A DNA stretch of 64,000 bases from Bradyrhizobium sp. Ash2021 (lineage in GTDB: Bacteria > Pseudomonadota > Alphaproteobacteria > Rhizobiales > Xanthobacteraceae), in the NCBI RefSeq assembly GCF_031202265.1, contig NZ_CP100604.1:992001-1056000 (forward strand), written 5' to 3'. The notes under the pieces are model-generated. The model worked only from the letters and a program-made list of their open reading frames with translations. It did no database searches and was not told where the DNA came from. Both the position numbers and the translations under genes were made by a program. Shown in pieces: positions 28,615-31,739 of this stretch (within the stretch, counting starts at the first letter, position 1; every line of letters starts with the position of its first letter).

Positions 28615-29325
28615 GTGACGGCAGCCGCGCAATCTTCAGAGGATGATCAAACCGTGCGCGCTTCGACTGTTACGATTGCAGATGTAGCGCTACTCGCCGA
28701 TCTCTCCGGCGCGCTGTTCTGGGAAGAGCAGCGCCTGCTCGTCGTCTCCGACCTGCACCTCGAAAAGGGTTCCAGCTTTGCCGCGCGCGGCGTGCTGCTG
28801 CCGCCCTACGATACGGTGGCGACGCTCGGCCGGCTTGCCGCCGTCATTGCCCGCCACGACCCGCGCATGGTGATCGCGCTCGGCGACAGTTTTCACGATC
28901 GAACCGCGCATGAACGTCTCGCGGATTCGAATCGCGAGGCGCTGACTGCGCTGCAGGCGCGGCGAGACTGGATCTGGATATCGGGCAATCACGATCCGGC
29001 ACTGCCGTCCGATCTCGGCGGCGTGGTCGCCAGCGAAGTCGCCATCGGGCCCATCGTGTTCCGCCACGAGCCGACCGGCGCGTTCGGCGAAATCGCCGGC
29101 CATCTGCATCCCAAGGCGCGGGTGCCGACGCGCGGGCGCACCATGGAGCGGCGCTGTTTTGCCAGCGACGGCGAGCGCGCGGTGATGCCGGCGTTCGGCG
29201 CCTACACCGGGGGGCTAAGCATCCGCGACGCGGCATTCGCCAAAATCTTCGGCACGCCGGGCTTCATGGCGCATGTGCTCGGCGACCGCAAACTGCACGC
29301 GATCGCCGCCTCGCGGTGTTATTGA
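28615..29325 (+). CDS. pdeM: Ligase-associated endonuclease/phosphoesterase PdeM
   Basis: The protein has 236 residues from a GTG start three bases after the helicase stop. Calcineurin-like metallophosphoesterase motifs appear in order: VVSDLHLEKGSSFA, ALGDSFHDRTAHE, ISGNHDPALPSD and AGHLHPKARVPTRG. PdeM is the fourth part of the ligase-exonuclease-helicase repair set and is thought to act as a nuclease on damaged DNA. Tight spacing indicates co-transcription and probably translational coupling with the helicase. Confidence 0.92.
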   Translation: MTAAAQSSEDDQTVRASTVTIADVALLADLSGALFWEEQRLLVVSDLHLEKGSSFAARGVLLPPYDTVATLGRLAAVIARHDPRMVIALGDSFHDRTAHERLADSNREALTALQARRDWIWISGNHDPALPSDLGGVVASEVAIGPIVFRHEPTGAFGEIAGHLHPKARVPTRGRTMERRCFASDGERAVMPAFGAYTGGLSIRDAAFAKIFGTPGFMAHVLGDRKLHAIAASRCY

Positions 29326-29440: not shown

Positions 29441-29472
29441 CGGTGAATTTTTGCGCGAGACGCGTTGGAAAG

Positions 29473-29639
29473 TGCCCGACGGGCAAATCAGTAAAAACCT
29501 GTCCAGCCCTTCCCATAAAATATTTCGCTTCCGCCGTTGGGCAAATCAGTAGTTTGACTCCGCGCGTCTCACCCGAGCAAGGGGCGTTTCTCGAGTCGTC
29601 ACGAACGCGCGGTGGGATGCGATGGACGCGACAACGTCG
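29473..29639 (+). repeat. Direct repeat copy 1 flanking the leader-peptide genes
   Basis: About 167 bases beginning TGCCCGACGGGCAAATCAGT and ending GGACGCGACAACGTCG. It matches 30368-30535 nearly base for base in the same orientation. It corresponds to the middle part of the large dispersed repeat at 30240-31020, so it is a partial copy. Together with the palindrome before it, it fills the gap between pdeM and the first leader-peptide gene. Confidence 0.85.
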
Positions 29640-29716
29640 CATGGGCAGCGTGATTTGCGTCACAGTCTCGGCGACGCGGATTGAGCATGGTCACACCTTC
29701 ATCAAAGGAGCAGACC

Positions 29717-29914
29717 ATGAGCAGCCTCAACACCGAGCCTAAGCTTTCGAAATACGAATTGAACGAGGAACAACTCGAGAAGGCCACTGGTGGATCATCT
29801 CTGTCGCTTAGTTACGCACGTGTAAAATTTGAGTACACCGAGCAGAAGCCGGATGGCACCGCTGCGGGTAACGTGGCCGCCAAATGGAGCCTCGCTCAAG
29901 GTGCCGTAGCGTGA
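29717..29914 (+). CDS. Double-glycine leader peptide with a core like the Hcp C-terminus
   Basis: The gene has 65 codons. AAAGGAG lies ten bases before the ATG. The N-terminal half (about residues 1-26) is a leader ending NEEQLEKATGGS, the form recognised by C39 peptidase/ABC exporters of bacteriocins and related peptides. The following core, SLSLSYARVKFEYTEQKPDG and VAAKWSL, resembles by eye the last strands of T6SS tube protein Hcp (pattern L-x-F-A-x-V-x-x-x-Y-x-x-Q-K-x-D-G ... W). An Hcp fold cannot form from 39 residues. It is followed, 79 bases later, by a second gene with the same leader ending. No exporter is nearby. Confidence 0.75.
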   Translation: MSSLNTEPKLSKYELNEEQLEKATGGSSLSLSYARVKFEYTEQKPDGTAAGNVAAKWSLAQGAVA

Positions 29915-29993
29915 TGGTCAGGCACAACATGTCAATCACCCGCGCTATGACTCTGAGTTGTGCGCGGGTGTTCGCAAGCAAAGGAGCGCGATC

Positions 29994-30173
29994 ATGACAC
30001 GACAGCGCGATGACGAGGACCTCGAAGCCCACGTTCCCCTGGCAGAACTGAGCGAATGCGACCTTGAGAAAGCGACCGGCGGTTCACAGTCTTCTGGAAG
30101 CGGGTCAGGCAAAGTCCAGCACGGTGACCTGCAAGTTCAGAAATATCTTGATAAGGCATCCATCATTCTCTGA
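29994..30173 (+). CDS. Double-glycine leader peptide with a core like the Hcp middle segment
   Basis: The gene has 59 codons. AAAGGAG lies eleven bases before the ATG, the same arrangement as the first gene. The leader ends LSECDLEKATGGS; the block LEKATGGS is identical to the first peptide but is encoded with different synonymous codons. The core begins SQSSGSGSGKVQHGDLQVQK and continues YLDKAS. It resembles the Hcp loop and strand in which S-Q-S-G, a glycine-rich stretch, G-K-V, a D-L and K-Y-x-D-K-S follow one another. The segment is distinct from the one copied in the first gene. The stop directly follows, so nothing beyond this piece of Hcp is present. Confidence 0.72.
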   Translation: MTRQRDDEDLEAHVPLAELSECDLEKATGGSQSSGSGSGKVQHGDLQVQKYLDKASIIL

Positions 30174-30239: not shown

Positions 30240-31020
30240 TTAGCTGCTCGCGGAGTTGACCGGCGGGCGTGCGCGGCGTGGCGGCATGCCCCCCAGCGCA
30301 TCAGCACCGTCTCGCTCCCGGCGTCCGCGTTTCGGACGACCCAGGGGAGGGTGACGGTCACAAAAATTGCCCGACGGGCAAATCAGTAAAAACCTGTCCA
30401 GCCCTTCCGATAAAAATATTTCGCTTCCGCCGTCGGGCAAATCAGTGGTTTCTCTCCGCGCGTCTCACCCGAGCAAGGGGCGTTTCTCGAGTCGTCACGA
30501 ACGCGCGGTGGGATGCGATGGACGCGACAGCGTCGGGCGCGCAGTGGGATCGCAGGGCGGGTCTTCCCGTGAGCGATCGGCCGGCGCGCGGACGAACGGC
30601 GCTGCTAACCGTTTTCGCCAGAACTCGCCGGGCGGCACGAGGCCCGGCAAGACCTTTGGCGCTGATGGTCGCGGACGGTGAAGTCGTGTGGTCCTGGCGC
30701 CCCGATGCTGGCGTCAAGTTTTGCGCAAGATGCATTTCACCCGACCGGGTTTGAGATGGATCTGTCATCCGCAAGGCGACGGTGGCAAACAAGCCGGTCA
30801 CCGGGGAGAGCACGAAGTAAGCCGTAACCCTTCGCGCGGGGAAAGCCGGGGTGACCCGGTTGAACCTGTGGTCCACTCGTGCGCTTGTTGTGCGCACGAC
30901 CGCGGGTGCAATCGGCGCCCGGCTTTCCCTGCGCCCTCTGTTCTCGAGAGGGTCGAAATCGACGCAAGCCTCGGGCGCAATGCGCCGCGAGAACGCGGAT
31001 GCATATCCCTTGCTGTTTGA
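30240..31020. repeat. Large dispersed repeat of the Bradyrhizobium type, no gene
   Basis: This ~780-base stretch has no convincing gene. It contains the landmark blocks TTTCGGACGACCCAGGGGAG, TGCCCGACGGGCAAATCAGT, GAACGCGCGGTGGGATGCGA, GAAGTCGTGTGGTCCTGGCG, AACAAGCCGGTCACC, GGAAAGCCGGGGTGACCCGG and TTTCCCTGCGCCCTC. From memory these occur together in many intergenic copies in Bradyrhizobium and Rhodopseudomonas. Several open frames cross it on both strands, but none has family resemblance. It contains the second direct-repeat copy at 30368-30535. Confidence 0.75.
30368..30535 (+). repeat. Direct repeat copy 2 flanking the leader-peptide genes
   Basis: This 168-base stretch nearly matches 29473-29639 in the same orientation, differing at a handful of positions (for example CCGATAAAAATATTTC for CCCATAAAATATTTC). 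The two copies are about 895 bases apart and bracket both leader-peptide genes. Confidence 0.85.
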
Positions 31021-31213: not shown

Positions 31214-31461
31214 GATCGTGGTCCAAACCGGCTACATAGGTAACACAATAGACCGGCGACATGGGTAACAGGTCAAATACTCGGCGAGGAGGGCCTTGCC
31301 GATGGGTTGGATGGAGACCTGTGCCGTGGATGAACGGATGCGGTTTGTGATGTCGGTTGTTCAGCGAGAGGAGGCGTTTGCTGTGACATGCCGCCGCTTC
31401 GGAGTGAGCCGGAAGACGGGTTACAAATGGCTTGAACGCTATCGAGAGGCAGGCGTCGAGG
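31214..31461 (+). mobile_element. Left-end remnant of an IS481-like insertion sequence
   Basis: A terminal-repeat-like stretch (GCTACATAGGTAACAC then GACATGGGTAACAGG) precedes an ATG at 31302. That ATG opens a transposase N-terminus with MRFVMSVVQREEAFAVTCRR and FGVSRKTGYKWLERYREAGV, the helix-turn-helix of IS481 transposases. Homology stops at about codon 53 (31461). The catalytic DDE domain and the right end are absent, so the element is dead. Confidence 0.75.
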
Positions 31462-31739
31462 TCGCAAAACGCTTCAAGGCGGGCGTGGTGCTGCCATTCG
31501 CGGGCGCGGCGCAGACCCGCGGACCGTTCCATCTGACCATCGACACCAATGACACCATCGAGACGGCGCGCGCGTTTCCGGACGCCGTGATCGTGCCCGT
31601 TCATACCGATGGATGGGCGCATTTCCGCCAGAGCGCGAGCGATCTGCGCGCGTCCTTTGATACACTCGGCTTTGGGGCGCGGTTGCGGATTCTGGAGCCC
31701 GGCGTCGCAACGGTCATCGAGCCGTCGTCTCGCGCTTGA
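31462..31739 (+). pseudogene. C-terminal remnant of an MBL-fold (UlaG-like) hydrolase fused to the IS481 fragment
   Basis: In the same reading frame as the truncated transposase, the sequence continues into FHLTIDTNDTIETARAFPDA, then VIVPVHTDGWAHFRQS and RLRILEPGV. This is the C-terminal segment of beta-lactamase-superfamily hydrolases, including the last metal histidine in VPVHTDGW. The N-terminal metal motif HxHxDH is missing. The resulting chimeric frame (31302-31739) may be read as one protein but would have neither function. The Nramp-type gene starts 90 bases later. Confidence 0.7.

Follow-up and report, generated by a model that had tools for sequence, protein, structure and literature searches.

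Double-glycine peptides with Hcp-like core segments: a dispersed family of Bradyrhizobium

Among the closest described systems to the genes reported here are the NHLP/NHLM systems, which are hallmarked by precursors with a conserved leader and a Gly-Gly cleavage motif and of which a single genome can hold up to 12 (Haft et al. 2010, PMC2887384); Hcp, type VI secretion, and Bradyrhizobium are not mentioned in the main text of that paper. A designed peptide that copies an interface of the type VI secretion system (T6SS) is reported to block this machine (PMC8406304), which may serve as a precedent for the principle of T6SS-mimicking blockers. Here, we describe a pair of small genes in a window of 64,000 nucleotides from Bradyrhizobium sp. 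Ash2021 (contig NZ_CP100604.1, positions 992,001 to 1,056,000) that encode precursors with double-glycine leaders and with cores resembling two segments of Hcp. The finding goes beyond this pair, which is part of a dispersed family whose members in the window's genome cover most of Hcp.

Anatomy of the gene pair and Hcp likeness of its cores

The original prediction had described two small tandem genes, each with an AAAGGAG ribosome binding site and a leader ending in LEKATGGS, and our own reading agrees with its coordinates, lengths, and sites:

28615-29325: metallophosphatase-like frame (named by eye) on one side of the pair
29469..29639, forward strand: left one of two direct repeats (about 172 bp) flanking the pair, sharing 95% identity with the right one
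29704..29710, forward strand: AAAGGAG ribosome binding site of gene 1, read directly, 6/6 match to AAGGAG
29717..29914 (stop included), forward strand: gene 1, precursor peptide of 65 aa
29717..29794, forward strand: double-glycine leader of gene 1, MSSLNTEPKLSKYELNEEQLEKATGG, matched by leader-only profile A6 at E 0.0053 in the window's genome
29795..29911, forward strand: core of gene 1, Hcp-like C-terminal segment (class E), corresponding to residues 121-152 of the genome's own Hcp
29980..29986, forward strand: AAAGGAG ribosome binding site of gene 2, read directly, 6/6 match to AAGGAG
29994..30173 (stop included), forward strand: gene 2, precursor peptide of 59 aa
29994..30083, forward strand: double-glycine leader of gene 2, MTRQRDDEDLEAHVPLAELSECDLEKATGG, aligned with the leaders of other members
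30084..30170, forward strand: core of gene 2, Hcp-like loop-strand segment (class B), corresponding to residues 44-68 of the genome's own Hcp
30364..30535, forward strand: right copy of the direct repeat of about 172 bp, 95% identical to the left copy
31296-31739: 147-aa frame resembling an IS element (by eye) in the stretch on the pair's other side

The AAAGGAG sites lie six or seven bases ahead of the ATG, and each leader closes with LEKATGG, to which an S is joined. Six of the eight LEKATGGS codons differ synonymously between the two genes, in line with the synonymous coding described in the original prediction. Gene 1 and its sister genes are found by the leader-only profile (20 columns, consensus ELxxxELxxVSGG), which was built from 70 leaders with those of genes 1 and 2 included, and they show a conserved hydrophobic spacing, the GG end, and a ribosome site; the gene 2 leader is absent among the matches listed for this search (to an E-value of about 0.05). 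The flanking repeat has at least 40 copies in the window's genome, and among the matches listed, the two copies around the pair are nearest to each other, with the next best at 87%. We considered these repeats as marks of a dedicated cassette and dropped the idea because the repeat is so unspecific. One copy also adjoins an orphan full-length Hcp gene (L001).

This full-length and intact gene (L001 1423-1899, C1:2885433), from a genome with no VipB match, provided our mapping reference. We take it to encode a true Hcp because a Foldseek search with its AlphaFold model (mean pLDDT 79) has the P. aeruginosa Hcp, 1y12, as its top match (E 1.5e-17). Another genome of the genus, G161, carries a near-identical full-length Hcp (L099), likewise with no VipB match.

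Core 2 matches the Pfam family T6SS_HCP over positions 35-64 of 129 (E 9.1e-5; 23.2 bits against a curated cut-off of 23.5), and the place of gene 2 also came up with T6SS_HCP in a whole-genome Pfam search (E 8.9e-4). Its weaker Hcp matches are NCBIfam TIGR03344 (E 0.092; 12.6 bits, cut-off 58.9) and PDB entry 1y12 (E 0.71). Core 1 has no Pfam match at E<=10 and no Hcp match in NCBIfam; its PDB matches at this threshold number nine, each of them an Hcp or Hcp-type protein aligned near the C-terminus (residues 109-175), with 9qpe as the best (E 5e-5) and with 7fcf being labelled "Fimbrial protein" in one listing and "T6SS Hcp protein" in another. Core 1 further matches phrog_27303 at positions 126-156 of 164 (E 8.9e-4), a family that we regard as Hcp-like because the full-length Hcp of the window's genome matches it at 2.4e-29. 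Both cores reach the floor of a shuffling test against Hcp (p 0.002 with 500 shuffles), and their resemblance to Hcp at the level of sequence is greater than chance would give. A whole Hcp domain is absent from both peptides, and what they hold is homology to the corresponding part of Hcp. The proposal that the cores represent two different pieces of this protein is thus borne out, through T6SS_HCP for gene 2 and through PDB and PHROG rather than Pfam for gene 1, and the two segments indeed do not overlap (Hcp residues 121-152 and 44-68) and follow each other in an order that is the reverse of Hcp.

Relatives in the window's genome and across the genus

The window pair almost certainly belongs to a dispersed family, recognized by its sequence pattern of a double-glycine leader followed by one short Hcp segment as the core. 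Family members were found by a genome-wide Hcp search and by leader scans of the matching regions, and relatives were drawn solely from whole-genome and contig searches. Beyond the window, where gene 1 is of class E and gene 2 of class B, the same genome has the following peptides:

C1 680441-680632: class C (helix and next strand)
C1 1411007-1411171: class D
C1 5444744-5444938: class A (Hcp N-terminus)
C1 5445219-5445413: class E (C-terminal strands)
C1 5445494-5445652: class E (C-terminal strands)
C1 5445748-5445930: class B
C1 6208816-6208983: class C (helix and next strand)
C1 about 6208985: uncertain class E peptide (shuffle p 0.041 with nine Hcps, 0.186 with eight)

This makes ten Hcp-segment peptides at five loci, nine of which are significant by shuffling. 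Hcp-segment cores have 15-43 residues and no whole fold, each behind an export leader of its own, and every listed piece has its own start codon and a ribosome-site-like sequence, which was a condition for being listed. One further core that looks by eye like the C-terminal end of Hcp (L045, RSQPGWNLAKNLRAA) was not significant (p 0.44) and is not counted. Jointly, the ten peptides span Hcp residues 2-31, 44-107, and 113-152 (134 of 158) and include 88 of the 101 that are predicted to lie in strands or helices of the modelled own Hcp, a coverage much of which ten random pieces would also achieve by rough reckoning. Residues that are invariant among eight Hcps are retained in 99 of 122 aligned cells versus 259 of 598 at other columns, a figure that is inflated by the selection of these alignments for similarity.

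Our first set of 104 double-glycine peptides was biased toward Hcp, with loci that came partly from Hcp queries, and we therefore drew a sample by leader alone. Across eight genomes, the leader-only search gave 8 to 87 matches per genome at E<=5. Four carrier genomes (G000, G161, G083, and G168) had 53 rows listed to an E-value of about 0.05, of which 51 were scored (all except L172 and L181 of G168), resulting in 47 distinct cores. Of these, 18 are Hcp-like at p<0.01 and 20 at p<0.05 (1000 shuffles, nine full-length Hcps) compared to zero and three in a reversed-Hcp control, a fraction that holds for these four class B carriers and not for the whole genus, and for a leader profile that itself contains leaders of Hcp-segment peptides. 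Within the window's genome, seven of 12 listed leader rows fall below p 0.01, one more has p 0.041, and the other four are not Hcp-like. Among the 104 peptides of the first set, T6SS_HCP is matched by 22 at E<=0.1 in Pfam and several leader families by 3 to 22 each, while every other family matches one peptide at most, which argues against a random capture of gene pieces. Searching in the opposite direction, with the core columns of the class D profile as query, gave matches to Hcp genes in 26 genomes (E 8e-6 to 9e-5; frames of 102 to 183 aa), and those of the class B profile likewise match Hcp genes.

Several other peptides came to light in these scans. G012 and G085, in which 87 and 65 leaders match at E<=5, apparently have very large double-glycine repertoires, and many of the cores that were read in them are unlike Hcp. 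In G161, one double-glycine peptide (core NRSQVNDPWYRGPKLGAP...) is present in four near-identical, distant copies (L184, L185, L186, and L187). Related peptides of two genomes (L044 6396-6563 and L094 2042-2209) share a core of the type RxDPYxxFNFRVT, which we had guessed to be a piece of another tail tube protein, gp19. We dropped this assignment, as these cores have no Pfam or PHROG match and L094 also matches no PDB sequence; a second captured protein family may possibly lie behind them.

For the idea that the same gene pair recurs in Bradyrhizobium, the outcome differs between family and pair. Among the 265 Bradyrhizobium genomes searched, 17 have members of classes B, C, or D with both leader and core (G000, G001, G012, G054, G083, G085, G090, G114, G132, G161, G168, G196, G205, G213, G214, G215, and G258), and no close ortholog of the window pair was found in whole-genome and contig searches. 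This survey covered classes B, C, and D, of which 12 of the 17 carriers have no more than two. The peptides of G168, G054, and G205, whose rows miss part of the leader, were read individually, and a weak class C match in G041 was dropped, its core not being Hcp-like. A class C row on a 1147-aa frame in G161 was left uncounted; the open frame of this length at L190 (G161:C3:451410) combines a double-glycine leader of the same type with repeats that resemble cadherin/RTX-type adhesins by eye, and from this leader, the NHLP-type exporter described below may also serve large proteins.

In the contig search, profile A7 matches four named Bradyrhizobium strains. The gene 2 peptide as query found no confirmed relative in genome contigs, and the class B peptide L092 found no match in plasmids. 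Among 397 genomes of the order outside the genus, there was one leader and core match at E<=1e-4 in a member of another family (G350), a peptide with a class B core that is adjoined by two further double-glycine peptides, while 382 genomes of the phylum gave none at E<=1e-5 besides the window's own. We note a peptide of G137 (L142 2062-2259) with a double-glycine leader of the LNPQPLPP type that by eye runs into a class B-like Hcp piece and lies about 1 kb from an NHLP-type HlyD gene (78% over 130 residues); its relative in G041 (L141) ends before the Hcp-like piece. The sheath gene VipB/TssC has no match in the window's genome, with E. coli as a positive control. Across the genus, it has a match in 56 of the 265 genomes, comprising one of the 17 carriers (G012) and 55 of the 248 non-carriers. 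The low share in carriers is not significant (p 0.13), and no association between T6SS absence and carriage is claimed.

Ortholog sets of other family members enabled the dN/dS comparison that had been proposed for the pair. In eight such sets (Nei-Gojobori), leaders had a pooled dN/dS of 0.44 and cores one of 0.37, from pairs that are not independent. Single values range from 0.03 to 1.55, and those that exceed one, on few changes, belong to the class C2 core (1.12) and to two leaders of class D1 (1.23 and 1.55). For ten non-overlapping pairs, which were chosen by hand and are all other family members than the window pair, we obtained pS 0.160 and pN 0.081 in cores (pN/pS 0.50, Fisher p 0.007) and pS 0.175 and pN 0.092 in leaders (Fisher p 0.0008). 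Leader and core are thus under purifying selection in family members with orthologs, and constraint on the window pair itself is suggested by the behavior of this family together with the synonymous differences in the shared block.

How leaders and cores came together can be glimpsed from several members. Behind the KSPAKP leader type, G000 and G161 have cores of class E and G083 has a class B-C core, a pattern that would fit either an exchange of cores behind the leader or different deletions of a longer ancestor; a full-length Hcp with a double-glycine leader was not seen by eye in 28 loci plus L001, L099, L072, and L058. The class B core of the RDAASG type scores 90 against a panel of Hcps and 38 against the own Hcp used for mapping, from which we derive that it came from another Hcp subfamily, and the class B segment was likely captured at least twice.

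Export and possible roles

The original prediction had envisaged that a C39-type ABC exporter secretes Hcp mimics. Such an exporter indeed exists in the genome, with one family member adjoining it, and it is unlinked to the window pair, which lies more than 300 kb away. It forms part of an NHLP-type export set at C1 681293-688240, in which three of four proteins score above their curated cut-offs (TIGR03796 with 1061.8 bits against 853.3, TIGR03797 with 866.9 against 709.4, and TIGR03794 with 296.9 against 156.2) and the bacteriocin-transport-associated protein stays below (132.6 bits against 161.05). Downstream on the same strand follow two double-glycine peptides, the last of them with a class C core. 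The same order is found in G161, while the exporter of G258 ends less than 400 bp from a class C peptide on the opposite strand and that of G054 lies about 9 kb from an Hcp-segment peptide. These are the three of 11 other carrier genomes with an exporter (more than 55% identity to all three main proteins) near the member, as judged for one member per genome within about 10 kb on either side, or within a shorter stretch where the contig ended sooner. Three other C39 matches lie at two places of the window's genome (L010 and L011). Export by a C39 exporter is probable, and the window pair may be served by it in trans.

The proposed course of events would begin with the double-glycine leader being read by the NHLP-type C39 exporter, probably the one encoded elsewhere on the chromosome, upon which the leader would be cut after GG and the core released from the producer. 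The mature core, one or two strands or a helix with a strand resembling Hcp, might then pair with Hcp or an Hcp partner of neighboring bacteria and interfere with recognition or with the building of the tube. In this way, producers, most of which have no type VI machine, would weaken rivals equipped with one. What makes these pieces look like new secreted mimics is that they are kept by selection in carriers that mostly have no such machine. We tentatively favor that the cores could be exported mimics that disturb Hcp assembly or recognition in a way that depends on their likeness to Hcp. Somewhat more doubtful is the broader notion of a dispersed modular arsenal of exported Hcp pieces that would act as mimics to counter type VI secretion in rivals, or of an Hcp-like assembly rebuilt outside of the cell. 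Hcp assembles in the cytoplasm of the rival, and the exported peptides would have to reach it there. Counting against mimicry are also that one carrier (G012) itself has a T6SS sheath gene, that most members examined have no adjoining exporter (8/11 other carriers), and that constraint is not seen in every single ortholog pair.

The most serious competitor, itself a doubtful but possible explanation, is that these peptides are two- or many-peptide bacteriocins that would target membranes or receptors and that have recruited strands and the helix of Hcp as amphipathic elements, with their likeness to Hcp being a matter of ancestry. Their leaders and exporter are of the type known from bacteriocin systems, different segments stand side by side not only in the window but also at L008 and its G161 counterpart L092, and many sister peptides have cores unrelated to Hcp. 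The two-protein bacteriocin of Caulobacter, as reported, kills on contact via a type I system (PMC5380434). Against plain bacteriocins speak Hcp's standing as the sole recurring non-leader Pfam family among the 104 peptides and the retention of Hcp-invariant residues, which ancestry alone would not demand.

We consider it unlikely that the peptides are relics, i.e., pieces of Hcp genes accidentally joined to leaders, or chance resemblances. The members are scattered, short, and limited to 17 of 265 genomes by the class B, C, and D searches, and some single ortholog pairs lack constraint; yet the Hcp likeness withstands shuffle and reversed-Hcp controls and is reciprocated by matches to Hcp genes, every listed piece has the start codon and ribosome-site-like sequence required for listing, and the ten non-overlapping pairs are under purifying selection (core p 0.007, leader p 0.0008). 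The original alternative of eroded Hcp paralogues is equally disfavored by this constraint in other family members.

Even less probable is a split Hcp of which an exporter limited to short chains would send the pieces separately so that Hcp-like rings, tubes, or fibers could assemble on the cell surface. One genome does hold pieces for residues 2-31, 44-107, and 113-152 of 158, including the 88 of 101 structured residues, but high coverage would also result from ten random pieces by the rough reckoning given above. The expectation that pieces end at Hcp loops was not borne out, with 30 of 34 ends and 20 of 34 starts inside a predicted strand or helix, and this disregard for the Hcp fold lowers the split-Hcp explanation and shifts its weight mainly to plain bacteriocins. 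In addition, the pieces lie at five loci with some classes in several copies, members elsewhere (L043 and L104) cross the boundary between classes B and C, and no more than two of the three surveyed classes occur in 12 of 17 carriers. That the peptides would use Hcp epitopes for recognition or signalling (of kin, the host plant, or in their own regulation) is similarly improbable, with the many variable double-glycine peptides per genome (8 to 87 at E<=5 in eight genomes) as the point in its favor.

Should the cores act through their likeness to Hcp, they would arm bacteria that have no type VI machine with a peptide counter-weapon, and each natural core would indicate a site at which the tube is open to blocking. 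As plain bacteriocins, they would still be cores taken piecewise from one secretion protein and would give a clue to the origins of bacteriocin cores. Were the mimicry true, we would know of no earlier case of a natural, secreted molecule that mimics the tube of a contractile injection machine.

Comparison with known systems

As the original prediction had it, no system of this kind seems to be described: our search of the open-licence literature by titles and abstract openings found no description of exported Hcp-segment peptides. The family resembles NHLP/NHLM systems in the exporter of the window's genome, with TIGR03794, TIGR03796, and TIGR03797 above cut-off, and differs from them by leaders that are not nitrile-hydratase-like and by cores that are Hcp pieces. 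Neither window peptide matches the nitrile hydratase leader TIGR03793 at E<=10, and this model matches six of the 104 double-glycine peptides, with a best E-value of 0.013. With class II bacteriocins and microcins, the family shares short precursors, the ELxxxELxxVSGG leader, a C39 exporter, and some tandem pairs, and weak matches at E<=0.1 link 22 of the 104 peptides to Bacteriocin_IIc of Pfam (best 0.0017) and 30 to TIGR01847 (best 0.0047). Unlike in these bacteriocins, the core sequence derives from a structural secretion protein.

Like the Cdz proteins of Caulobacter, a pair exported by a type I system, these are small proteins of Alphaproteobacteria, but Cdz are reported as glycine-zipper aggregators, and the Hcp-segment cores are no glycine zippers by eye (PMC5380434). 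The designed anti-T6SS peptide is likewise a short copy of a T6SS component, but it is described as man-made and cyclic and targets the contact of TssK and TssG, not Hcp (PMC8406304). To Hcp itself (TssD, T6SS_HCP PF05638), each core aligns with one segment and keeps most of the invariant residues, whereas the cores have a mere 15-43 residues behind export leaders and 16 of the 17 carriers have no VipB match. As precursors, the peptides are a variant of double-glycine peptides, and proof that they mimic an injection tube would make them a new kind of molecule.
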